64,000 bases of DNA from an uncultured Marinobacter sp. (lineage in GTDB: Bacteria > Pseudomonadota > Gammaproteobacteria > Pseudomonadales > Oleiphilaceae). Positions 50,924-62,463 of this stretch are shown here, one piece after another (position 1 is the stretch's first letter; each line of letters begins with the position of its first letter). A model generated the notes under the pieces. The model saw nothing but the letters and a program-made list of their open reading frames with translations. It searched no databases and had not been told where the DNA came from. The position numbers were made by a program, and so were the translations under genes. The DNA is taken from NCBI RefSeq assembly GCF_947259545.1, contig NZ_CAMYMK010000008.1:186001-250000 (forward strand), written 5' to 3'.

Positions 50924-51033
50924 GTGCCGGGCGAGCAAGCCTTCCTTGGGACCGCTACGAGCACATCCATGTGCGCTTCGCTTTGGCCATCCATGGCCAA
51001 AGATATCCCAAGGAAGGCTTGCCCGCCCGGCAC
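50924..51033. repeat. Long-palindrome element, copy 1 (28-bp arms, one mismatch; 54-nt centre)
   Basis: GTGCCGGGCGAGCAAGCCTTCCTTGGGA (50924-50951) vs TCCCAAGGAAGGCTTGCCCGCCCGGCAC (51006-51033); inner hairpins GCACATCCATGTGC and CTTTGGCCATCCATGGCCAAAG. Confidence 0.95.
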
Positions 51034-51220
51034 CTTCGGCTATGGTTACAGCTTTTCTTATTTTTCGGTACATGTGTGCGCAAACGTTCTACTAATCACA
51101 AAATATTCATCTTAATGCCATTGTCATTGGGGCTTTCTTTCTGTAAATTCGGCTCACACATGTACGCTCAAATGCAAAGAGGCGTGCTGAACGATTGTGT
51201 TTTCAGAATGAAGGTGACGA

Positions 51221-52309
51221 ATGAACGCTGCTGTTAAGCCCGATTCAATGGGAAATGCCGTGTTTGGAAAACCCGATGAGCGCGAGCTTCGGGACAGGAT
51301 GAAGAAGGAGCTGCCGGCGGATACGTTTCAGGCGCAGACCTGGCGGGTGATCTGGTTTCTGCCGTTGCAGCTGATTATCTGGGGTGGGATTGCGACGATT
51401 CTGCTGGCGGGGCTGCCTTGGTATGCAAATCTGGGGCTTGGGCTGGTGGTGGGGCACACCATTGGCTGTCAGGCGCTGCTGGCCCATGAGGTGTTGCACG
51501 GGGCGCTGGGTATGAGCAAGCGTTGGCAGAATTTCTTTGGCTGGTTGGGGTTCGGGCCGATGATTGTGCCGCCGGAGTTCTGGCGTAAGTGGCATAACGT
51601 GGTGCATCACGGCAATACCAATACCGGTGATTCGGATCCGGACAGTTTCGGTACCATGCGCCGCTACAAAGCCGATCCCAAGCAGAAGAAGTTCACCAAG
51701 CTGGCGCCGGGGTCAGGCACCTGGTACAGCTATCTCTTCCTGACCTATTCATTCACGTTCCATGCGCAATTGGTGCTGTGGTTCCAGGCCAAACGGCGCA
51801 AGCAGTTCCAGGGTTTGGATCGTCGCAAGGCGATTCGTCAGACCTTTTACTGCATGGCGGCGTGGGCTGTACTCGCGGTGATATCCGGTCCGCTGGCGCT
51901 GTTTACGGTGTTGGTACCGTTCATGGTGGCCAACGCCCTGGGGCAAGGGTATATCCTCACCAATCACTTCCTGCGTCCGCAGACGGCCACCAATAATCCG
52001 CTGGATAACTCCATGAGCCTGCGCAGCCATCCGGTTCTGGATCGGTTGCACTTCCGGTTCAGTCACCATGTGGAGCACCATTTCTTTCCGAAAATGGGGC
52101 ATAACATGGCGCCGCGTGTGCGGAAGTGGCTGGAGGAGAATCACGGCGAGCGGTATATGGCGATGCCCCATAGCACGGCGCTGAAGCTGCTTTACACCAC
52201 TCCGAGGGTTTATAAGTCGTCGACGGAATTAGTGGACCCGAATAACCCGGAGCGGGTGTTTGATTTGTTGCCGTTGCAAAGTCAATTTGCGGCTAGTAAT
52301 AGTCGGTAG
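51221..52309 (+). CDS. Membrane fatty acid desaturase
   Basis: Histidine boxes HEVLHGAL, HNVVHHGN, HHVEHHFFP; TM segments. Confidence 0.9.
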   Translation: MNAAVKPDSMGNAVFGKPDERELRDRMKKELPADTFQAQTWRVIWFLPLQLIIWGGIATILLAGLPWYANLGLGLVVGHTIGCQALLAHEVLHGALGMSKRWQNFFGWLGFGPMIVPPEFWRKWHNVVHHGNTNTGDSDPDSFGTMRRYKADPKQKKFTKLAPGSGTWYSYLFLTYSFTFHAQLVLWFQAKRRKQFQGLDRRKAIRQTFYCMAAWAVLAVISGPLALFTVLVPFMVANALGQGYILTNHFLRPQTATNNPLDNSMSLRSHPVLDRLHFRFSHHVEHHFFPKMGHNMAPRVRKWLEENHGERYMAMPHSTALKLLYTTPRVYKSSTELVDPNNPERVFDLLPLQSQFAASNSR

Positions 52310-52321
52310 TTCGTTAGGTTT

Positions 52322-52351
52322 GGTCGGATTACCCCTGTGGCTAATCCGACC
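52322..52351. repeat. Hairpin GGTCGGATTA-N10-TAATCCGACC
   Basis: Perfect 10-bp inverted repeat in the convergent desaturase/dehydrogenase intergenic region. Confidence 0.85.
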
Positions 52352-52373
52352 TTTCCGCCCGCTCCGGACCCGA

Positions 52374-53357
52374 CTACTTGCTCCCGGCGTACCCAAGCTC
52401 CTTGTCCACCAGATTGAACAGCTCCTCACCACCATGCCAGCGATCAAAGTTCTCCAGGAACTGGTCGGTAAGGGCGCGTTTCCAGCCGATGAAGTCTCCG
52501 GCCATATGGGCTGTCATGATGACGTTTTCCATGTCCCACAGTGGATGATCTTCCGGTAGCGGTTCTTCCTCGAACACATCCAGGCCTGCGCCAGCGATTT
52601 CGCCATCGCGCAGTGCCTCGACCAGGTCATCGGTCTTCACAATGGGGCCGCGGCCGATGTTGATCAGCCGGGCGTGAGGGCGCATGGTTTTGAACGCCTT
52701 GCTGTCGAACAGGCCTTCGGTCTGGGGCGTCAGGGGGGCGGCGATTACCACGTAATCCACCAGCGCCAGTTGTTGAAACAGGTCGTCGTTGCTGTGAACG
52801 GCGACAAAGTCGGGGTCGTCATGGCGGGCCCTGCGGGCGATGCCGTGGGGTTTCATGCCAATGGCGCTGACCAGGCGAGCGATCTGGCGACCGATGGAAC
52901 CGGCGCCCACTACAAGCACCTGATTGCCCTGTGCACGCTCTGTGTCCCGATGCTGCCACTTGTGGTCCATCTGCAGGCGAATGGATCGGGGGAAGTCCTT
53001 GGCGAACATCAGAATGGTGCAGAGCACATATTCCGCTATGGTTCGGTCAAAAATGCCCCGGGCGTTGGTGACCGTGACAGCGCCGTTGATCAGCGCAGGA
53101 AACATCAGCGCATCGACGCCGGCGCTGGTGGCGTGTATCCACTGAAGTTTATCCGCCGCAGGCCATGCGGCTTCGAGGGCTTCAGTGCGAAAGTCCGTGA
53201 CCATCATTACATCGGTGCCGGGCAGGGTATCCCTCAGAGTAGGCTCGTCACAGGCAAACCGTACGGTGGCCCTGGCCCGTAGAGCATCCATTCCGGGCGG
53301 TTCCTGCTCGTCCGGGGCAGTCAGAACGGTTACAACCGGTTTGCTGTGTTTTGTCAT
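52374..53357 (-). CDS. D-2-hydroxyacid dehydrogenase
   Basis: VLVVGAGSIGRQIARLVSAIGMKPHGIARR, LINIGRGPIVKTDDLVEALRDGEIAGAGLDVFEEEPLPEDHPLW. Confidence 0.92.
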   Translation of the reverse strand: MTKHSKPVVTVLTAPDEQEPPGMDALRARATVRFACDEPTLRDTLPGTDVMMVTDFRTEALEAAWPAADKLQWIHATSAGVDALMFPALINGAVTVTNARGIFDRTIAEYVLCTILMFAKDFPRSIRLQMDHKWQHRDTERAQGNQVLVVGAGSIGRQIARLVSAIGMKPHGIARRARHDDPDFVAVHSNDDLFQQLALVDYVVIAAPLTPQTEGLFDSKAFKTMRPHARLINIGRGPIVKTDDLVEALRDGEIAGAGLDVFEEEPLPEDHPLWDMENVIMTAHMAGDFIGWKRALTDQFLENFDRWHGGEELFNLVDKELGYAGSK

Positions 53358-53617
53358 CTGTCCTCCACTCACCTGAACACTCTTTTGGGGGGAGCTGGAA
53401 CGCTTGGTAAGGCGTTACGATCCAACCTTGTACAGTCTGGTTCGCGGGTGGCGGACGGTCAACCTGAGATGCTGAAATGGGGGCGTTCAGGGGCCGGGCA
53501 GTGACTGGTGCTCCGGACCCTGAATCTTTCTGTTGTTATGCCTTGTCGGCCCCATCTTTACTGACTAACCTGCATGAGTAGCTTCTTTTTTTTGCCTTGT
53601 TTGCAGGAGGTGTTTTT

Positions 53618-54844
53618 ATGGCCGAAGCCGCCAACAACGAAACTGGCCAGACCAAGCCCCGGAAAGTGAAGTATCGCAAGAGCAAGGCCAGTTGGAACCC
53701 CGCCATGCAGGCAGTTCCGGTCCCCGGCATTCGTCGCATGGTGAATATGGCGGCCACCATGAAGGATGTGATTCATCTGTCCATTGGTCAGCCTGACTTG
53801 CCAACACCCAAGCATATTATCGATGCCTACATCGACGCCCTGAATGCCGGGCAAACCGGTTACACCATGGACGCAGGTTTGCCTGAACTACTGGTGGCTC
53901 TGCGCGATTATTACGGCAAGCGCTATAACCGGCGGCTGACCCGGGATAATATCCTGATCACCAGTGGTGCCACGGAGGCGATGTACCTGGCTATCTCCGC
54001 CACATCGGCACCCGGGCGACAGTTTATCGTGACCGATCCGTCGTTCCTGCTCTATGCCCCACTGATCCGCATGAATGGCGGCGAGGTCAAGTTTGTCCCC
54101 ACGCGTGCCGAGAATAACCATCAGTTGGATCCGGACGAAGTGATCCGAGCCATGGGCGCCCGAACCTTTGCCCTGATCCTCAACAACCCGAACAATCCCA
54201 CTGGAGCGGTCTATCCCCGCAGTACGGTGGAGACCATTCTGGAAGAATGTGCTTACCGCGGGATTCAGGTTTACTCGGATGAGGTCTACGATCACCTGAT
54301 TTTTGACGATGACGACTTTGCCAGCGTACTGAACTGTTCGATGGACCTGGATAACATCATGTGTATCAGCAGTTTTTCCAAAACCTACAGCATGGCAGGG
54401 CTACGGATCGGATGGGTCATTTCGAGCCAGGCAGCCATCAAGTCCCTGCGTCGCTATCATATGTTCACCACCTCGGTGGCCAACACGCCATCCCAGTTTG
54501 CCGGGGTCGCGGCACTGACCGGTGACCAGCAGTGCGTCAAGGATATGGTGGACATTTACCGGGAGCGCCGTGACAAGGTGACGGAGTTGATCGATCAGAC
54601 GCCCCATATGACCGGTTACAAACCAGGCGGTGCATTCTTTGCGTTCCCGGATCTGCCGCCCCATGTGGATGGCTCTGACCTGGCGTTGCGAATGTTGAAG
54701 GAAACCGGTGTATGCGTGGTTCCTGGCGATGCCTTTGGCGAGCACTGTACCAATGCCGTCAGAATCAGCTTCTCCACCACTTGCGAGAAGCTGGAAGAAG
54801 CCTTCGACCGGATTATACCGTGGATGGCCAAGCAACAGTTCTGA
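53618..54844 (+). CDS. Pyridoxal-phosphate-dependent class I/II aminotransferase
   Basis: LSIGQPDLPTPKHIIDAYIDALNAGQTGYT, NNPNNPTGAVY, SSFSKTYSMAGLRIGW. Confidence 0.93.
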   Translation: MAEAANNETGQTKPRKVKYRKSKASWNPAMQAVPVPGIRRMVNMAATMKDVIHLSIGQPDLPTPKHIIDAYIDALNAGQTGYTMDAGLPELLVALRDYYGKRYNRRLTRDNILITSGATEAMYLAISATSAPGRQFIVTDPSFLLYAPLIRMNGGEVKFVPTRAENNHQLDPDEVIRAMGARTFALILNNPNNPTGAVYPRSTVETILEECAYRGIQVYSDEVYDHLIFDDDDFASVLNCSMDLDNIMCISSFSKTYSMAGLRIGWVISSQAAIKSLRRYHMFTTSVANTPSQFAGVAALTGDQQCVKDMVDIYRERRDKVTELIDQTPHMTGYKPGGAFFAFPDLPPHVDGSDLALRMLKETGVCVVPGDAFGEHCTNAVRISFSTTCEKLEEAFDRIIPWMAKQQF

Positions 54845-54851
54845 GGTGGAT

Positions 54852-55043
54852 ATGTCAGCCCTGGACTCGGTTCTCATTCAGTGCCCGTACTGCTGGGAGA
54901 CGCTGGATATCAGCGTCGACCCCTCAGTGCCGGAGCAGGAGTATGTTGAGGACTGCCAGGTCTGCTGCCAACCGATACTGCTGAAGGTCATCGTGGGCGA
55001 TGACCTGACGCCTCATGTGGAGGTTCACGCAGAGAATGAGTGA
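54852..55043 (+). CDS. CPXCG motif-containing cysteine-rich protein
   Basis: 63 aa MSALDSVLIQCPYCWETLDISVDPSVPEQEYVEDCQVCCQPILL. Confidence 0.88.
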   Translation: MSALDSVLIQCPYCWETLDISVDPSVPEQEYVEDCQVCCQPILLKVIVGDDLTPHVEVHAENE

Positions 55044-55130
55044 TCCTTTCTAACGAAGTCTTAACCTACTCTGTGCTCGGGATGGCTTAGGCTAGGTCGT
55101 CGTAATCTTGATCATTCCGGAGAAAAATCC

Positions 55131-55700
55131 ATGCTTTTGAAGCGATCGTCCGTATTGCCGGCCGTCCTCATTCTGGCAGTCAGCCTCATCAGCGGTTGTG
55201 CCACGCTGTCACCGTACTCGATCTCGGAAGGCACTCTGGAACGCCATCTTCAGGATGTCGTCACCACTTTTGACCGGGAACAATTGAAAAGTGGTTCGCC
55301 GTTAAGCTTGAGCCTGAGTGATGCCGACATCACCCTGGGGCCCGACGGCCGGGACGTGGCCGTAATAGATCTCAAAGGCCAGGTGGCACTCAACGCCCTG
55401 ATGGCCAAACTCCCGGTGAATCTGGCGTTAAAAGTGGAAGGAGCGCCGGTTTATGATGCCGAGGAACGGGCGGTTTATATCCGTCGCCTGCAGCTGCTCG
55501 AGAGCAGTATTGATTCACCGTTGTTCAAAGGCGAACTCAAGCCGGTGACCGACAACGTCATGCGGGTAGTGGCGCAAATGCTGGAAACCATGCCAGTCTA
55601 CAGATTGGATGACACAGACCTTGCCCAGCGTATGTTCGGACTGGTGCCCATGGACGTCCGGGTGGCTCCCGGTCGGCTTGAGTTTGTGATGGCAGAGTAA
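55131..55700 (+). CDS. DUF1439-like lipoprotein
   Basis: Lipobox LISGCA at N-terminus; 189 aa; SPLSLSLSDADITLGPDGRDVAVIDLKGQVALNALMAKLPVNLALK. Confidence 0.75.
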   Translation: MLLKRSSVLPAVLILAVSLISGCATLSPYSISEGTLERHLQDVVTTFDREQLKSGSPLSLSLSDADITLGPDGRDVAVIDLKGQVALNALMAKLPVNLALKVEGAPVYDAEERAVYIRRLQLLESSIDSPLFKGELKPVTDNVMRVVAQMLETMPVYRLDDTDLAQRMFGLVPMDVRVAPGRLEFVMAE

Positions 55701-55716
55701 TCGGGGAAGTGTCTGC

Positions 55717-55743
55717 AAGGGGCCGGATTCAGCGGCCCCTTTG
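55717..55743. terminator. Hairpin between convergent lipoprotein and aminotransferase genes
   Basis: AAGGGGCC ggattcagc GGCCCCTT followed by a short T run. Confidence 0.6.
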
Positions 55744-55767
55744 ACGTTATCCGCGTTGTCGGACTGA

Positions 55768-57027
55768 TCAGGCGGTTGCCTTCAGGGCTTCCTCAAAGAC
55801 GCTCACCGCCTCATCAATCTGTTGTTCATTGACGATCAGCGGCGGCAGCCAGCGTACGATCTCCTGGTAGGGGCCGCAGCGCAGCATCAACAAGCCGCGC
55901 TTCTCGCATTCCTTGAGAATCCTGCCGGCACGGTCACCGTCCGGAGCGTTGTCCCGGCGCATTTCCACGCCCACCATCAGGCCCATACCGCGAACGTCCG
56001 CCATGTCCGGATAGTCGTTCTTCAGGTTATGGAGGCTGTCCCAAAGACGCTTGCCCATCTTGTTGGCGTTCTCGACCAGGCCTTCTTCCCGGATAACGTC
56101 GATGGTTGCAATGGCTGCGGCGGCAGCCACTGCGTTGCCGCCATAGGTGCCACCCTGGGAACCTGGCCAGCCCTTGGACATGGTGTCTTCCGATGCCGCC
56201 AGGGCTGAAATCGGGAAGCCGCTGGCCAGGCCCTTGGCGATCATGATGGCGTCCGGCGTCACACCAAAGTGCTGGTGGGCCCAGAACTGACCGCTGCGAC
56301 CAAAGCCGGCCTGAACTTCATCGAACACCAGCATGATGCCATGCTTGTCACAGCGCTCCCGCAGGCCTTTCAGGAACTTGGCATTGGCGGGTACATAGCC
56401 GCCTTCACCCTGCACCGGTTCGATCAGCATGGCGGCGGTTTCCCTGGGTGCGGAATAGGTGACAAAGATCCGGTCCAGTTCCCGCAGGCAGAAATCGGTG
56501 GTGTCCTCAAGATTCCAGCCGTAGTGGTGGGCGTGGGGGAACGGGGCCACGACAACACCGCCCATCATCGGGCTAACGCCGGCACGGAGCCCGACGCTGG
56601 AGGTGGTCAGCGAAAGCGAGCCCATGGTGCGCCCGTGAAAGCCACCATGGAAGACAATGATGTTCGGGCGTCCTGTGGCCTGACGCACCAGACGGATTGC
56701 GCCCTCCGCTACTTCGGTGCCGGCGTTGGAGAAAAAAAACGCATTCAGCGGATCCGGGGTGAGTTCTCCCAGTTTCTCCGCCAATTCCGGTAAGCGTGGA
56801 TTCATCACCGTGGTGGCCTGGGCATGGATCATGGTGGCGACCTGTTTTTGCGCCGCCTCTACAATTTTCGGGTGGCAATGACCGGTGCTGGTGACGCCGA
56901 TGCCGGAGGTGAAATCAAGATAGCGCCTGCCATCCGGGTCAATGATATAAGCGCCTTCGCCCTTGGCTGCGGTGATGCCAGTCGCCTGTTTCAGCAGTGG
57001 TGATAACTTGCCTTTATGGTCGGTCAC
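55768..57027 (-). CDS. Class III aminotransferase (GabT/acetylornithine aminotransferase-like)
   Basis: YLDFTSGIGVTSTGHCHPKIVEAAQKQ, LVFDEVQAGFGRSGQFWAHQHFGVTPDAIMIAKGLASGFP. Confidence 0.92.
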   Translation of the reverse strand: MTDHKGKLSPLLKQATGITAAKGEGAYIIDPDGRRYLDFTSGIGVTSTGHCHPKIVEAAQKQVATMIHAQATTVMNPRLPELAEKLGELTPDPLNAFFFSNAGTEVAEGAIRLVRQATGRPNIIVFHGGFHGRTMGSLSLTTSSVGLRAGVSPMMGGVVVAPFPHAHHYGWNLEDTTDFCLRELDRIFVTYSAPRETAAMLIEPVQGEGGYVPANAKFLKGLRERCDKHGIMLVFDEVQAGFGRSGQFWAHQHFGVTPDAIMIAKGLASGFPISALAASEDTMSKGWPGSQGGTYGGNAVAAAAAIATIDVIREEGLVENANKMGKRLWDSLHNLKNDYPDMADVRGMGLMVGVEMRRDNAPDGDRAGRILKECEKRGLLMLRCGPYQEIVRWLPPLIVNEQQIDEAVSVFEEALKATA

Positions 57028-57104
57028 GGTGCACCTCCCGAAGTGAATTTAGTCCCTCTTGCAGACTAGCCCTAAAAAGACGCTTTTCAAATGCATGAGA
57101 AAGA

Positions 57105-58262
57105 TTAGTTGTCTTTAAGGCGACGGCAGATCGCGGCGCCGACTTCATGGGTGCTGCGCTGCATTCCGGAGTTCTCAGCAAGATCTGCCGCTACGGCGTC
57201 AAACAGCGTCTTGCCGGCAGCAGCCACCGCCGGATCCTTACGCCCCAGCCACTCCAGCATGCGTGCGGTAGTGAACAGCATGGCCGTGGGATCTGCCAGT
57301 CCCTGGCCGGCAATATCGGGGGCACTGCCGTGAGTTGGCTCAAACATGGATGGCATCGAAGCGTCGGTGGGGTTCAGGTTGCACGAAGGGGCAACCCCCA
57401 TGCCTCCGGACAACACAGCGGCAAGATCCGTCAGGATGTCACCCTGCAGGTTGCTGGCAACCACGACATCAAATGCCCACGGACACTGCACGAACTTCAT
57501 GCAGGCGGCATCCACCAGTTCATGATGGGTGGCGACATCCGGGTACTCTTTGCTGATCTCCTCAAAGGCCTCAGAGTACATATCACCCCAGTAGCGCAGG
57601 GCATTGCGCTTGGTGATAATGCAAACCTGGCTTTCGCAGGTGCGGCCATCCAGAGTTTTGAACTGACGTGTGCGCCCCTGTTTCATCCGCTCGCCGGCGC
57701 GCAGGCGGGCCTGCTCAAATCCGTAGCGAATAATCCGGTCGGTGGCGTAACGGGTGAACACCTCCATCTGTGTGGCGACTTCGTCAGGGGTACCTTTGCG
57801 CAGGCGACCACCCTGACTGACGTATTCGCCTTCGCTGTTTTCCCGGATGACCAGCATGTCGATGTCTTTGGCACGTTCATCGGCCAGGTACTGACGCGCT
57901 CCCGGCAATAGCCGTGCGGGCCGCTCACAAACCCATTGATCAAACCCCTTGCGCATATCCAGCAGTGGCGCCAGTGAAATGCTGTCAGGCAACAGGTAGC
58001 GTTGTGGATCATCTACTGGCCCCGGATCGCCAAGCGCGCCCAGCAGGATGGCATCAAATGCTTTGAGTTGTTCCAGGGCGTTTTCCGGCATGGATGCGCC
58101 ATGTTCCTCATGCCAGGCATGGGATGGCCAGGGAAAGCGGGTCCATTCCAGGTCCAGGTTATGCGTGGAGCGCAGTGTCTCCAGGCAACGCACGGCCTCA
58201 GCGACAACTTCAGGGCCAATACCATCGCCGGGGGTAATTGCGATTCGGGATTTCTGGGCCAT
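57105..58262 (-). CDS. Isocitrate/isopropylmalate dehydrogenase family (tartrate dehydrogenase-like)
   Basis: MAQKSRIAITPGDGIGPEVVAEAVRCLE, VIRENSEGEYVSQGGRLRKG, EPTHGSAPDIAGQGLADPTAMLFTTARMLEWLG. Confidence 0.92.
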   Translation of the reverse strand: MAQKSRIAITPGDGIGPEVVAEAVRCLETLRSTHNLDLEWTRFPWPSHAWHEEHGASMPENALEQLKAFDAILLGALGDPGPVDDPQRYLLPDSISLAPLLDMRKGFDQWVCERPARLLPGARQYLADERAKDIDMLVIRENSEGEYVSQGGRLRKGTPDEVATQMEVFTRYATDRIIRYGFEQARLRAGERMKQGRTRQFKTLDGRTCESQVCIITKRNALRYWGDMYSEAFEEISKEYPDVATHHELVDAACMKFVQCPWAFDVVVASNLQGDILTDLAAVLSGGMGVAPSCNLNPTDASMPSMFEPTHGSAPDIAGQGLADPTAMLFTTARMLEWLGRKDPAVAAAGKTLFDAVAADLAENSGMQRSTHEVGAAICRRLKDN

Positions 58263-58610
58263 TCCGCGAGCTCCTGTTGGCTTCTTGAATCGTATAGAAC
58301 TGTAGCTGTCAGTGTAGTCTCGTGGTTTGGGGATGCCAGAGTTTTGAATAATTGGCGTTTTACCAGGGAGGGCTTCGAGGCTATAGTTGAAAAAGTTTAT
58401 TGATTCTAAACTCAATTTGCTCGTTAGAGGGCAGTCAAGGAGAGGATGTGAACCGGCCTGCCGTTCTGTTTGATGAGTCTAAATGTGAACAATGTACGTG
58501 TGGCGAGAGATTGTTTTTTCCTTCTCATTTGCCTTCCAGCCCATCGTTGATGCGCAGAGCAAAGCCATTTTTGCTTAATTTTCCGGACTATTAGTCATTG
58601 AGGTTACATC

Positions 58611-58967
58611 TTGCTGTATCGCATTGTTACGATTGTTGGTGGACTGGTCTTTGTCATTGTCCTGTTCGCGCTGATCTGGTTTTTCTGTAAGCAGTTCTTG
58701 TTACGTCACGGTGTTCAGGATCAGGTGTCCGACCGGGCAACGGTTCTGGCTACCTGGACGTTTGCCGGCATCAGTGTCGGGCTGGTGTTCGCCGTGGTGG
58801 GTGCGTTTATTCTGGGTCCCTGGGCGTTCTACCGCACCTTACGGGGGCATGATGTGCCTGTTTCCGATGGTGCGGCTATCTGGTGGGGATTTGGCATTGT
58901 GGCACTGTCCATGGCTATCACCACCGCCGGGTTCCTCGGGTTCCTTGCCCTGGTCGGCGCCTACTGA
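58611..58967 (+). CDS. Small predicted membrane protein (three hydrophobic segments)
   Basis: 118 aa with hydrophobic stretches IVTIVGGLVFVIVLFALIWFF, FAGISVGLVFAVVGAFILGPW, GFGIVALSMAITTAGFLGFLALVG. Confidence 0.6.
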   Translation: MLYRIVTIVGGLVFVIVLFALIWFFCKQFLLRHGVQDQVSDRATVLATWTFAGISVGLVFAVVGAFILGPWAFYRTLRGHDVPVSDGAAIWWGFGIVALSMAITTAGFLGFLALVGAY

Positions 58968-58976
58968 CCGGCGCTC

Positions 58977-59870
58977 TCAGGCAATATGTCGGAGTTGTTC
59001 GCGGAACCAGATCAATGCGGGTTCCCGTTCATAGGCCTTGTGCCAGTATAGATGCACATCCAGGCTGGGCAGGTCTGCTGGTGGCGTAAGAATGCTTATG
59101 TTTGCACGTTCAGCGATGATCCGCGCGTAGGTTTCCGGCATGGTCAGTAACAGGTCGGTCCCCTCGACGACCCGGCAGGCTGCGTAGTAATGCTGGCAAC
59201 GCAGGCGTATATGCCGTTGCACGCCCAGGCGCGACAGTTCGAAATCCTCAATCCCCGGGCCCTCTGTACGTGAGGACACCAGCACATGCTGGGCGGCAAT
59301 ATACCTGTCCATAGTCAGCTCGCCTTCAGTCAGTGGATGCCCGGCTCTCGCCAGCACCACTAATCGATCCCGCCGTAACAGCTCGTGGGCGGTCTGATTG
59401 CTCACTGGCAACAGCACGTCCACCGCAAAATCCAGCTTCCCGGCTGCCAGTTGGGTCTCCATATCCCGCCGTGGAATCCGCTGGCTGACGATTTCCAGCT
59501 CCGGGTACTGATCGAGCCGCTGCATGAGCTGTGGCAGGAAGGTCGATTCCAGAATATCCCGCAGGGCCAGGGAATAAGTCTTGCGCTGGGTGGCAGGATC
59601 GAAGGCATGGAACTGGTTAACCGCACCCTGAATCTGGGTAAGTCCGGGTCGCATGGACTCCAAGAATCGCCGGGCCAGGGGCGTGGGAATCATCTGGTTA
59701 CCCTGACGGGTAAACAGGGGATCATCAAAATGCTCCCGTAACCGGGACAGTGAATGACTGACGGCCGGTTGTGTCAGGTGCAGCGCCTTGGCCGCACGAG
59801 TGAGGCTACCTTCCCGATAGATGGTGTCAAAAACGTGCAGAAGATTAAGATCCAGCCGATTCAGGGCCAT
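58977..59870 (-). CDS. LysR-family transcriptional regulator
   Basis: MALNRLDLNLLHVFDTIYREGSLTRAAKALHLTQPAVSHSLSRLREHFDDPLF; divergent from the acyl-CoA dehydrogenase. Confidence 0.94.
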   Translation of the reverse strand: MALNRLDLNLLHVFDTIYREGSLTRAAKALHLTQPAVSHSLSRLREHFDDPLFTRQGNQMIPTPLARRFLESMRPGLTQIQGAVNQFHAFDPATQRKTYSLALRDILESTFLPQLMQRLDQYPELEIVSQRIPRRDMETQLAAGKLDFAVDVLLPVSNQTAHELLRRDRLVVLARAGHPLTEGELTMDRYIAAQHVLVSSRTEGPGIEDFELSRLGVQRHIRLRCQHYYAACRVVEGTDLLLTMPETYARIIAERANISILTPPADLPSLDVHLYWHKAYEREPALIWFREQLRHIA

Positions 59871-59989
59871 AATTTTACCGATCCATGAATAAGTATGACT
59901 AATAATAAATGATAAGAATAATTCAGTCGCGTAATAGTGTATTGGATCATAGACTGGTGGGATAGTGCACAACCAATGAGGGTACGACG

Positions 59990-61201
59990 ATGGATTTCAG
60001 TATTTCCGAAAAGGGCCAGGATTACCTCAACCGCGTGAAGCAATTCATGAAGGATGAGATATTCCCGATTGAAGAGCAGTACCACCGGGAGCTGGCTTCT
60101 CTGGATAACCGCTGGGTGGTGCTGCCCATCATCAAGGAACTGAAGGAAAAGGCCAAAGCTCAGGGCCTGTGGAACATGTTCTTCCCGGACGAAGAACACG
60201 GTTGTGGCCTACTTAATTCCGATTACGCTCTGATTGCCGAAGAAACCGGCCGCAGTTTCATTGCTCCGGAAATCTTCAACTGCAATGCGCCGGACACCGG
60301 CAATATGGAAGTGCTGATCCATTACGGCTCCGAAGAGCAGAAAGCCGAGTGGCTGCCGCGACTGCAAAGCGGTGAGATCCGCTCTGCTTTCTGTATGACC
60401 GAGCCGGCGGTTGCCTCTTCCGACGCGACCAACATGGAAGCCACCGCCATTGTTGAAGGTGATGAAGTAGTCCTCAACGGCCGAAAATGGTGGAGTACCG
60501 GCATTGGTCACCCGGATTGCAAGGTAGCCATCTTTATGGGCCTGACCGACCCGGATGCCCAGAAGCACCGCCGCCACTCCATGGTTCTGGTGCCGCTGGA
60601 TACCCCGGGCGTGAAGATTGAACGCATGCTGCCGGTATTTGGTGAATACGACGAGCCCTACGGCCACGGTGTTGTCTCTTTCGAGAATGTCCGTTTGCCG
60701 AAAAGTGCCTTTATTGCCGGCCCCGGCCGTGGTTTTGAAATCGCCCAGGGCCGTCTGGGACCGGGCCGTGTTCATCACTGTATGCGCGCTATCGGTGCCG
60801 CTGAGCGCACTCTGGAATTGCTGATCAAGCGTGCAACCAGCCGTGAAGCCTTTGGTCGCCCGATCGCGAAACTGGGCGGTAATCCGGACATTATCGCCAA
60901 TGCCCGCATGTCGATTGAGCAGGCCCGCTTGTTGACTCTCAAATGTGCCTGGGCGCTGGATACCAAGGGTATCGGCGGTGCTCTTCAGGAAGTTTCCATG
61001 ATCAAGGCGGTAATTCCGTCCATGCTGCAGACTATTGTGGATCAGGCGATTCAGATTCACGGTGGCGCTGGTGTCAGCGACGATGATTTCCCTCTGACGC
61101 AATTGTTCGCCTATGCTCGGGTATTGCGGCTGGCCGATGGGCCGGACGAGGTTCATCGGGCTATGGTGGCTCGCCTGGAGCTTCGCAAGTACAAGTCCTG
61201 A
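59990..61201 (+). CDS. Acyl-CoA dehydrogenase
   Basis: AFCMTEPAVASSDATNMEATA, RATSREAFGRPIAKLGGN, QIHGGAGVSDDDFPLTQLFAYARVLRLADGPDEVHR. Confidence 0.95.
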   Translation: MDFSISEKGQDYLNRVKQFMKDEIFPIEEQYHRELASLDNRWVVLPIIKELKEKAKAQGLWNMFFPDEEHGCGLLNSDYALIAEETGRSFIAPEIFNCNAPDTGNMEVLIHYGSEEQKAEWLPRLQSGEIRSAFCMTEPAVASSDATNMEATAIVEGDEVVLNGRKWWSTGIGHPDCKVAIFMGLTDPDAQKHRRHSMVLVPLDTPGVKIERMLPVFGEYDEPYGHGVVSFENVRLPKSAFIAGPGRGFEIAQGRLGPGRVHHCMRAIGAAERTLELLIKRATSREAFGRPIAKLGGNPDIIANARMSIEQARLLTLKCAWALDTKGIGGALQEVSMIKAVIPSMLQTIVDQAIQIHGGAGVSDDDFPLTQLFAYARVLRLADGPDEVHRAMVARLELRKYKS

Positions 61202-61242
61202 GCCTTGGGTTGGATCGCCCCCAGCCTTTGAGTTGGGCGTAG

Positions 61243-61355
61243 GGGGCCGGCGGGGCGGTGTTTCTGAAAACCGCTCCTTCGGCACATCCCTGTGGCGCTT
61301 CTGCTCCGCCATCCATGGCTCCGCAAATTTTCAGAAACACCGCCCCGCCGTCCCC
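61243..61355. repeat. Long-palindrome element, copy 2 (28-bp arms, one mismatch; 57-nt centre)
   Basis: GGGGCCGGCGGGGCGGTGTTTCTGAAAA (61243-61270) vs TTTTCAGAAACACCGCCCCGCCGTCCCC (61328-61355); centre contains CACATCCCTGTG and TGCTCCGCCATCCATGGCTCCGCA. Confidence 0.95.
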
Positions 61356-61482
61356 TTCGGACTGCGGAGTGGGATTCGGGGTTCAACGACGGCGAGAATT
61401 AGTCGGGTTCGACGGAGCTATTTATCGAATCGAAGTTTGCCAAAACCATAGGGCTTGACGAACAGCTTACTGAGATGTCGGG

Positions 61483-61595
61483 GAGCTGGTGCCTGGTCGG
61501 CCCTTCCAAAACGTTGCGGAGCCATGGATGGCGGAGCACAGCGTACAGGGACGTATCCACAGCGTGTTTTGGAAGGGCCGACCAGGCACCAGCTC
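61483..61595. repeat. Long-palindrome element, copy 3, opposite orientation (30-bp perfect arms; 53-nt centre)
   Basis: GAGCTGGTGCCTGGTCGGCCCTTCCAAAAC (61483-61512) and its exact reverse complement at 61566-61595; centre contains the reverse complement of TGCTCCGCCATCCATGGCTCCGCA. Confidence 0.95.
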
Positions 61596-61644: not shown

Positions 61645-62463
61645 ATGACACAAAGAGTATTTATCACAGGTGGGGCCAGCGGCCTGGGCCGGGCAATTGC
61701 ACTGCGTTATGCCAAAGAAGGGGCCAAGGTCTGTATCGGTGACATCAACCCGGAGCAGGGCGTTGACGTTGAGAAAGAGATCAACGCCGCCGGTGGCGAA
61801 GGCTATTTTGTTGAGTGTGATGTCCGCAGGCTGACCGATTTCGAGAAGGTCCGTGACGATCTGGTCAAGAAGTGGGGTGGTGTCGATGTGGTGGTGAACA
61901 ATGCCGGTGTTGCCTCTGCGGGCTCCATCGAGGACACCACCATGGCCGACTGGGAGTGGATTCTGGACATCAACGTACTGGGCGTGGTCCGTGGCTGCAA
62001 GGCGTTTACACCGCAATTCAAACAGCAGGGCTTTGGAGCGTTTGTGAATGTGGCATCCATGGCCGGGCTCATGTTGGCGCCGTTGATGGACAGCTACAAT
62101 GTTACCAAGGCCGGGGTTATTGCCCTGTCCGAGACGCTGAGCCAGGAGTTGAGGGATTCCGGGATTCATGTGAGTTGCGTGTGTCCGGCGTTTTTCCAGA
62201 CCAATCTGACCAGCAGCATGCGATCGGATATTCCTGGTATCCAGCAGAATGTGAACAAACTGATGAAGCGCTCCAGTATCACAGCGGATGATGTCGCTGA
62301 GGATATTGTCCGTTCCGTCAAAGAGAAGAATTTCTGGGTGCTTCCCCACGCCAAGGAGCGTCGTATGTGGATGCTCAAGCGCCATGCACCGTGGGCCTTT
62401 GACTGGTTGATGCACCAGGAAAGCAAACGTTGGATGAACAAGATGGGTGGCAGTAAGGCGTAA
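61645..62463 (+). CDS. SDR-family oxidoreductase
   Basis: MTQRVFITGGASGLGRAIALRYAKEG, VVNNAGVASAG, YNVTKAGVIALSETLSQEL. The upstream ORF extension to 61489 lies in the repeat and is unlikely to be coding. Confidence 0.93.
   Translation: MTQRVFITGGASGLGRAIALRYAKEGAKVCIGDINPEQGVDVEKEINAAGGEGYFVECDVRRLTDFEKVRDDLVKKWGGVDVVVNNAGVASAGSIEDTTMADWEWILDINVLGVVRGCKAFTPQFKQQGFGAFVNVASMAGLMLAPLMDSYNVTKAGVIALSETLSQELRDSGIHVSCVCPAFFQTNLTSSMRSDIPGIQQNVNKLMKRSSITADDVAEDIVRSVKEKNFWVLPHAKERRMWMLKRHAPWAFDWLMHQESKRWMNKMGGSKA

Follow-up and report, generated by a model that had tools for sequence, protein, structure and literature searches.

Intergenic palindromes of Marinobacter belong to the TwoAYGGAY RNA family and carry two loops that fit a CsrA site

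Three intergenic palindromes in a 64,000-nucleotide stretch of Marinobacter DNA (the window) are members of TwoAYGGAY, a known RNA family that forms a dispersed intergenic repeat in this genome. In the literature TwoAYGGAY is a probable RNA without a known function (Weinberg et al. 2010, PMC2864571), and none has been assigned to it since 2010. The Marinobacter copies constitute a large natural data set for the family, one that points to its functional strand, to upkeep of pairing in place over the genus, and to a fit of both loops with a CsrA site. The CsrA hypothesis thereby becomes directly testable, a RAYT-type mobile repeat is disfavoured, and caution is in order before a dispersed palindromic repeat is taken for a REP element.

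Results

Three palindromes in the window match RF01731

In each of the three palindromes (50924-51033, 61243-61355 and 61483-61595), arms of 28-30 bp flank a conserved two-hairpin centre. The arms of elements 1 (50924-50951/51006-51033) and 2 (61243-61270/61328-61355) are 96% complementary and those of element 3 (61483-61512/61566-61595) 100%, bearing out the arms, centres and coordinates given by an earlier sequence-only reading of this DNA. Compared with shuffles, all three elements folded strongly both as ssDNA (z = -9 to -12; equally good shuffles 0/200) and as RNA (z = -8.5 to -12).

A permissive Rfam scan matched all three to RF01731 (TwoAYGGAY) at 28.8-32.3 bits. Since these scores lie under the curated 43-bit cut-off, membership was judged genome-wide. 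The genome of the window (4.08 Mb, 99% complete; among the named relatives in the collection of genomes, M. lipolyticus SM19 is nearest) gave 43 matches at E<=1, all spanning model positions 1-168 and one of them above the cut-off (44.3 vs 43 bits); 14 control genomes gave no RF01731 match. The sequence-only reading had known no name for the elements and had let their novelty depend on there being no match to an already described family; with TwoAYGGAY identified, that novelty is gone.

Element 1 (site S1; 50924..51033, minus strand) scored 32.3 bits against RF01731 and 110.1 bits against our own covariance model, R1. Its neighbours, assigned by Pfam, are a fatty acid desaturase gene and a LuxR-type response regulator gene that has its own intrinsic terminator; the GGA strand of the element is antisense to both genes. 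On that strand hairpin A reads GCACATGGATGTGC (50961..50974) and hairpin B, also recovered by pattern match, reads CTTTGGCCATGGATGGCCAAAG (50981..51002), each with the loop ATGGAT. Element 2 (site S2; 61243..61355, minus strand; RF01731 28.8 bits, R1 103.8 bits) sits downstream of an acyl-CoA dehydrogenase gene, to which its GGA strand is antisense. Its hairpin A is CACAGGGATGTG with loop AGGGAT (61283..61294, minus), and its hairpin B, TGCGGAGCCATGGATGGCGGAGCA, contains a GGA/GGA internal loop (61302..61325, minus). Element 3 (site S3; 61483..61595, plus strand; RF01731 31.4 bits, R1 110.2 bits) is the plus partner of element 2 in a minus/plus pair and lies ~50 nt upstream of a short-chain dehydrogenase start at 61645. 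It has hairpin B TGCGGAGCCATGGATGGCGGAGCA (61515..61538, plus) and hairpin A TACAGGGACGTA with loop AGGGAC (61544..61555, plus), the latter close to the CsrA SELEX site RUACARGGAUGU (consensus: PMC7652899). The conserved GGA-loop strand is thus minus in elements 1 and 2 and plus in element 3. RF01731 matches lie opposite the strand aligned previously: the architecture proposed then stands, but the strand displayed, with CATCC loops, is the complement of the one that appears to be selected, with GGA loops.

The elements form a multi-copy family

Across the 4.08 Mb genome we counted 62 instances of the exact core GCCATGGATGGC and 0 of a reversed control; outer arms were present in fixed register at 58/62 of these sites. 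The palindrome architecture is a multi-copy family, well above chance. Searching with R1, built from 44 copies, yielded about 94 copies in the genome of the window, answering the earlier call to look for further copies, and 6-133 among congeners. Elsewhere in the order, R1 found 30 copies in one genome of another family and none in two others. RF01731-positive genomes numbered 17/274, patchily spread across the class, and in other gammaproteobacterial families matches reached up to 65 bits with the same architecture of a long outer stem and two inner hairpins.

Marinobacter copies share with TwoAYGGAY the outer stem, two AYGGAY-type hairpin loops, the strand and the full-length 1-168 alignment. 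They differ from its model in that most score under the curated cut-off, in loops that read ANGGAN and not strictly AYGGAY, and in nested hairpin modules inside a loop in some copies. These extra multi-hairpin modules, of ~80-90 nt, sit in the loop of either hairpin, A or B (L063:9630-9816, L077:9630-9819 and L094:9660-9850; in the window's genome, C2:257757, C2:869838 and C9:69592-69788). Modules at either place follow ATGG and open with GTGA(A/G)G; a further ATGGAT hairpin lies within the one in hairpin B.

Pairing is retained, with a bias towards one strand

Covariation was assessed on 44 copies. Both-sided changes were found at 28/28 outer pairs, 98.1% of outer-stem cells were paired, and the covariation score was 0.82, compared with 0.18 after shuffling and <=0.15 after sliding. 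Over the 20 outermost letters of the left arm, paralogues were 39% identical, where composition alone predicts 31%; arm sequences between paralogues are close to saturation. The earlier proposals that pairing, not sequence, is retained, and that arms are complementary within a copy and different between copies, agree with covariation at every outer pair, with ~98% of pairs kept and with this near-saturation.

Each Watson-Crick pair gives one transition to either mismatch class, so that the opportunity for G.U and A.C is equal in both directions. Among the outer pairs of 93 copies (28 pairs each), read on the GGA strand, we counted 2475 Watson-Crick, 66 G.U, 8 A.C and 55 other pairs, an asymmetry of 66:8 with a binomial p of 2e-12. 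Unpaired flanks leaned the opposite way (44:108 for the same classes). The bias of the stems was present in every gene context (23:2, 11:2, 23:4 and 7:0), with sense, antisense and convergent-gap copies all showing it, and orthologues in further species had it too (31:8).

Because G.U is tolerated and A.C is not, and because both arms co-change at orthologous sites, these data argue for selection on the folded GGA strand. DNA copying alone, or a cruciform, should leave symmetric mismatches, which 66:8 is not. We infer that the selected form is one folded single strand reading ANGGAN in both loops, in keeping with the folded strand, DNA or RNA, that had been put forward from the sequence. RNA is the simplest reading, with single-stranded DNA a remoter alternative; strand-biased mutation could also contribute to the 66:8 ratio.

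Copies are maintained in place across the genus

At sites S1 (50924), S2 (61243), S3 (61483) and a further site, S1b, elements were found between the same genes and in the same orientation in many Marinobacter species. Comparison of S1 between the window and L061 showed differences at 17/27 pairs, 15 of them through compensated double changes; adjoining intergenic DNA had diverged about equally, as judged by eye. S1 lacks the element in some Marinobacter species. At S1b, L061 has an intact element that is lost from the window genome, where outer-arm sequence, TTCCGCCCGCTCC, is left over at 52353-52365; comparison of the two sequences identifies the difference as a deletion in the window genome. 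From such alignments, copies are judged to be maintained in place across the genus with their arms co-evolving. The alternative offered earlier, that arms are rebuilt or copied on insertion, does not by itself account for orthologous same-site copies that diverge in both arms together, and recent arm copying between paralogues was not detected, the best left-arm match being 23/28 letters.

At S2, L081:19180-19640 and L082:19180-19630 (M. koreensis, M. santoriniensis) share one sequence up to the end of the acyl-CoA dehydrogenase gene and on into the element, then diverge from the inner end of one arm onward, leaving the arms mismatched. On sequence comparison this break is a recombination junction within the S2 element, which rules out the L082 copy as a half-changed one.

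Elements lie near gene 3′ ends, with close copies in inverted pairs

Genes were called by a crude codon model, so that the following context counts are approximate. Copies were intergenic in 92/93 cases, and convergent gene pairs made up 25/80 occupied gaps, compared with 10/137 empty gaps (p 7e-6). The nearest gene 3′ end was a median of ~30-40 nt away on the facing side. Orientation in tandem gaps was near even (26 sense, 22 antisense). Close pairs were minus/plus in 12/12 cases in the window's genome and, from listings, in 8/9 cases in other genomes, another family among them.

Flanking signals were scarce. TTTT within 12 nt followed the hairpin in 0/93 copies on the GGA strand and 1/93 on the other, and an intrinsic terminator, with its U-tract directly after the hairpin, was accordingly rejected. 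A sigma-70 promoter of the element's own or a shared upstream motif was rejected likewise: promoter scans of the copies scored no higher than shuffles, and a motif sampler gave 7.35 bits upstream against 7.06 for shuffled sequence. Downstream it returned a weak CACCAAA...CAGGCTA tendency (8.11 vs 6.43 bits).

Both loops match a CsrA site

Two C[ANGGAN]G loops, exactly two each, were present in 90/93 cores; their N positions vary (T/G/A/C and T/C/G/A). GGA-to-GGA spacing was 23-25 nt in 89/90 two-loop cores, and ACANGGANGU was present in 81/93 cores. RsmE/CsrA binds with high affinity to ANGGAN hexaloops carried on a stem, ACA, GGA and GU are conserved in SELEX, and one CsrA dimer can span two sites separated by 10-63 nt, best at >18 (PMC7652899, PMC4005645). 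Both the loop type, ANGGAN closed by C-G, and the spacing match the published high-affinity CsrA/RsmA site and bridging distance. A CsrA link for TwoAYGGAY had already been suggested from motif matching (PMC4333381).

The csrA gene was found in the window's genome and in all relatives tested. It was also present in 17/17 other RF01731-positive genomes, but in 15/17 RF01731-negative ones as well. Being nearly universal, csrA makes its co-occurrence uninformative, and we dropped it as support for the CsrA link.

Discussion

Alternative origins of the repeat

The placement of the elements invites a REP/BIME-like reading, in which a stable hairpin after a gene guards the 3′ end of the mRNA against exonucleases and serves as an insulator for adjacent or converging transcription units, the GGA loops being incidental or serving another factor. 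Near-exclusive intergenic location, enrichment in convergent gaps, proximity to gene 3′ ends and BIME-like inverted close pairs all fit it. It leaves unaccounted for, however, the near-invariant A.GGA. loops at their fixed spacing and a one-strand selection independent of gene direction, and the U-tract is absent on both sides; we consider this reading rather unlikely. REP/BIME/REPIN elements with RAYT resemble the Marinobacter elements in being intergenic, near gene 3′ ends, in inverted pairs and of high copy number, but the latter have a much longer stem and unconserved arm sequence, and lack Y1_Tnp in their own genome and in several copy-rich relatives. That absence also bears on a non-autonomous MITE- or REPIN-like element, whose folded single strand would be the transposition substrate of some other enzyme, structure being kept as only folding copies move. 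High and variable copy number in the genus (6-133), patchiness across the class, inverted pairs and sites without the element in relatives agree with such mobility. Yet a search for Y1_Tnp (RAYT), the co-occurring transposase that the sequence-only reading had suggested seeking, found none in the window's genome or in G001, G005 and G008, relatives with 59-79 copies, so that a RAYT-driven REP family was rejected; a relative with 22 Y1 matches carries just 6 copies. Nor does the target-site duplication proposed as a mark of insertion appear, direct repeats at the borders being no longer than in mis-matched controls, and MITE status fails on this test.

A clean insertion was likewise not found, the one near comparison, S1b, being the deletion described above, and orthologous sites keep their copies across the genus with co-evolving arms. 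Paralogous left arms share <=23/28 letters, which speaks against recent copying. We regard mobility as the origin of the conserved structure as unlikely. MITEs are likewise short, dispersed, palindromic and non-coding, but the Marinobacter elements have neither target duplication nor a conserved terminal repeat and are kept in place across species. The suggestion of a REP/BIME- or MITE-like family thus holds as regards intergenic position, inverted pairing and closeness to gene 3′ ends, and fails for transposase and target duplication. Least probable by far is a mutational artefact, in which intrastrand template switching in replication copies arm onto arm (quasipalindrome correction) and yields perfect palindromes without function. 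Such switching is a documented process (PMC8794818); double changes are common, many of them with R-Y flipped (627 flipped, 397 not), and the S1 arms differ between the window and L061 about as much, by eye, as neighbouring intergenic DNA. Template switching predicts symmetric mismatches, though, and would not hold loop letters constant; as sole cause it is largely refuted by the wobble asymmetry, and it may still aid arm co-evolution.

A possible role as CsrA decoys

We prefer a mechanism in which the elements act as CsrA-binding decoys, because motif, spacing and strand selection fit; with both binding and transcription putative, we give it an even chance of being right. Read-through, antisense transcription or weak promoters of the elements themselves would yield RNA of the GGA strand, and its 28-bp stem would display two CsrA/RsmA hexaloop sites ~24 nt apart, which a single CsrA dimer could bridge. 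All copies jointly would form a distributed CsrA reservoir or decoy, and single copies might tether CsrA to transcripts ending in them. Several points count against CsrA as the ligand: the elements show no promoter- or terminator-like signal, in tandem gaps they face either way about equally often, and the second loop in other gammaproteobacterial families, often a pentaloop, is sometimes without GGA (GACACGACGTC). The very stable stems may also weaken binding, as CsrA affinity may drop when the stems under the loops are very stable (PMC7652899). Finally, a patchy distribution (17/274 genomes) and copy numbers of 6-133 inside the genus resemble a mobile repeat more than a core regulator.

A bolder and unlikely extension is a distributed CsrA-sequestering system in which ~95 scattered RNA elements, with ~180 candidate CsrA sites, would stand in for one sRNA gene. 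Pervasive or read-through transcription would then set the level of free CsrA, and minus/plus pairs would give one active element in either direction. Like the CsrA-sequestering sRNAs CsrB/CsrC and RsmX/Y/Z, the elements carry CsrA/RsmA-type GGA hairpin loops as repeats. Whereas those concentrate many sites in few sRNA genes, the Marinobacter elements spread two sites per element over ~95 loci and, in sequence scans, have no identifiable promoter or terminator.

Neighbouring repeats

Another short palindromic repeat, GTCGGATTA...TAATCCGAC(CTACG), adjoins several elements; it was seen at ~52323-52350 in the window, near 11.1 kb in L061 and L063, and upstream of C7:725107 and C7:775168 in the window's genome. 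Separately, two sites upstream of the fatty acid desaturase gene, at ~51068-51081 and ~51155-51170, are palindromes with the pattern GTACANNTGTAC (TTCGGCTCACACATGTACGCTCAAA). These sites are kept in nearly all relatives and are a likely operator of a desaturase regulator.
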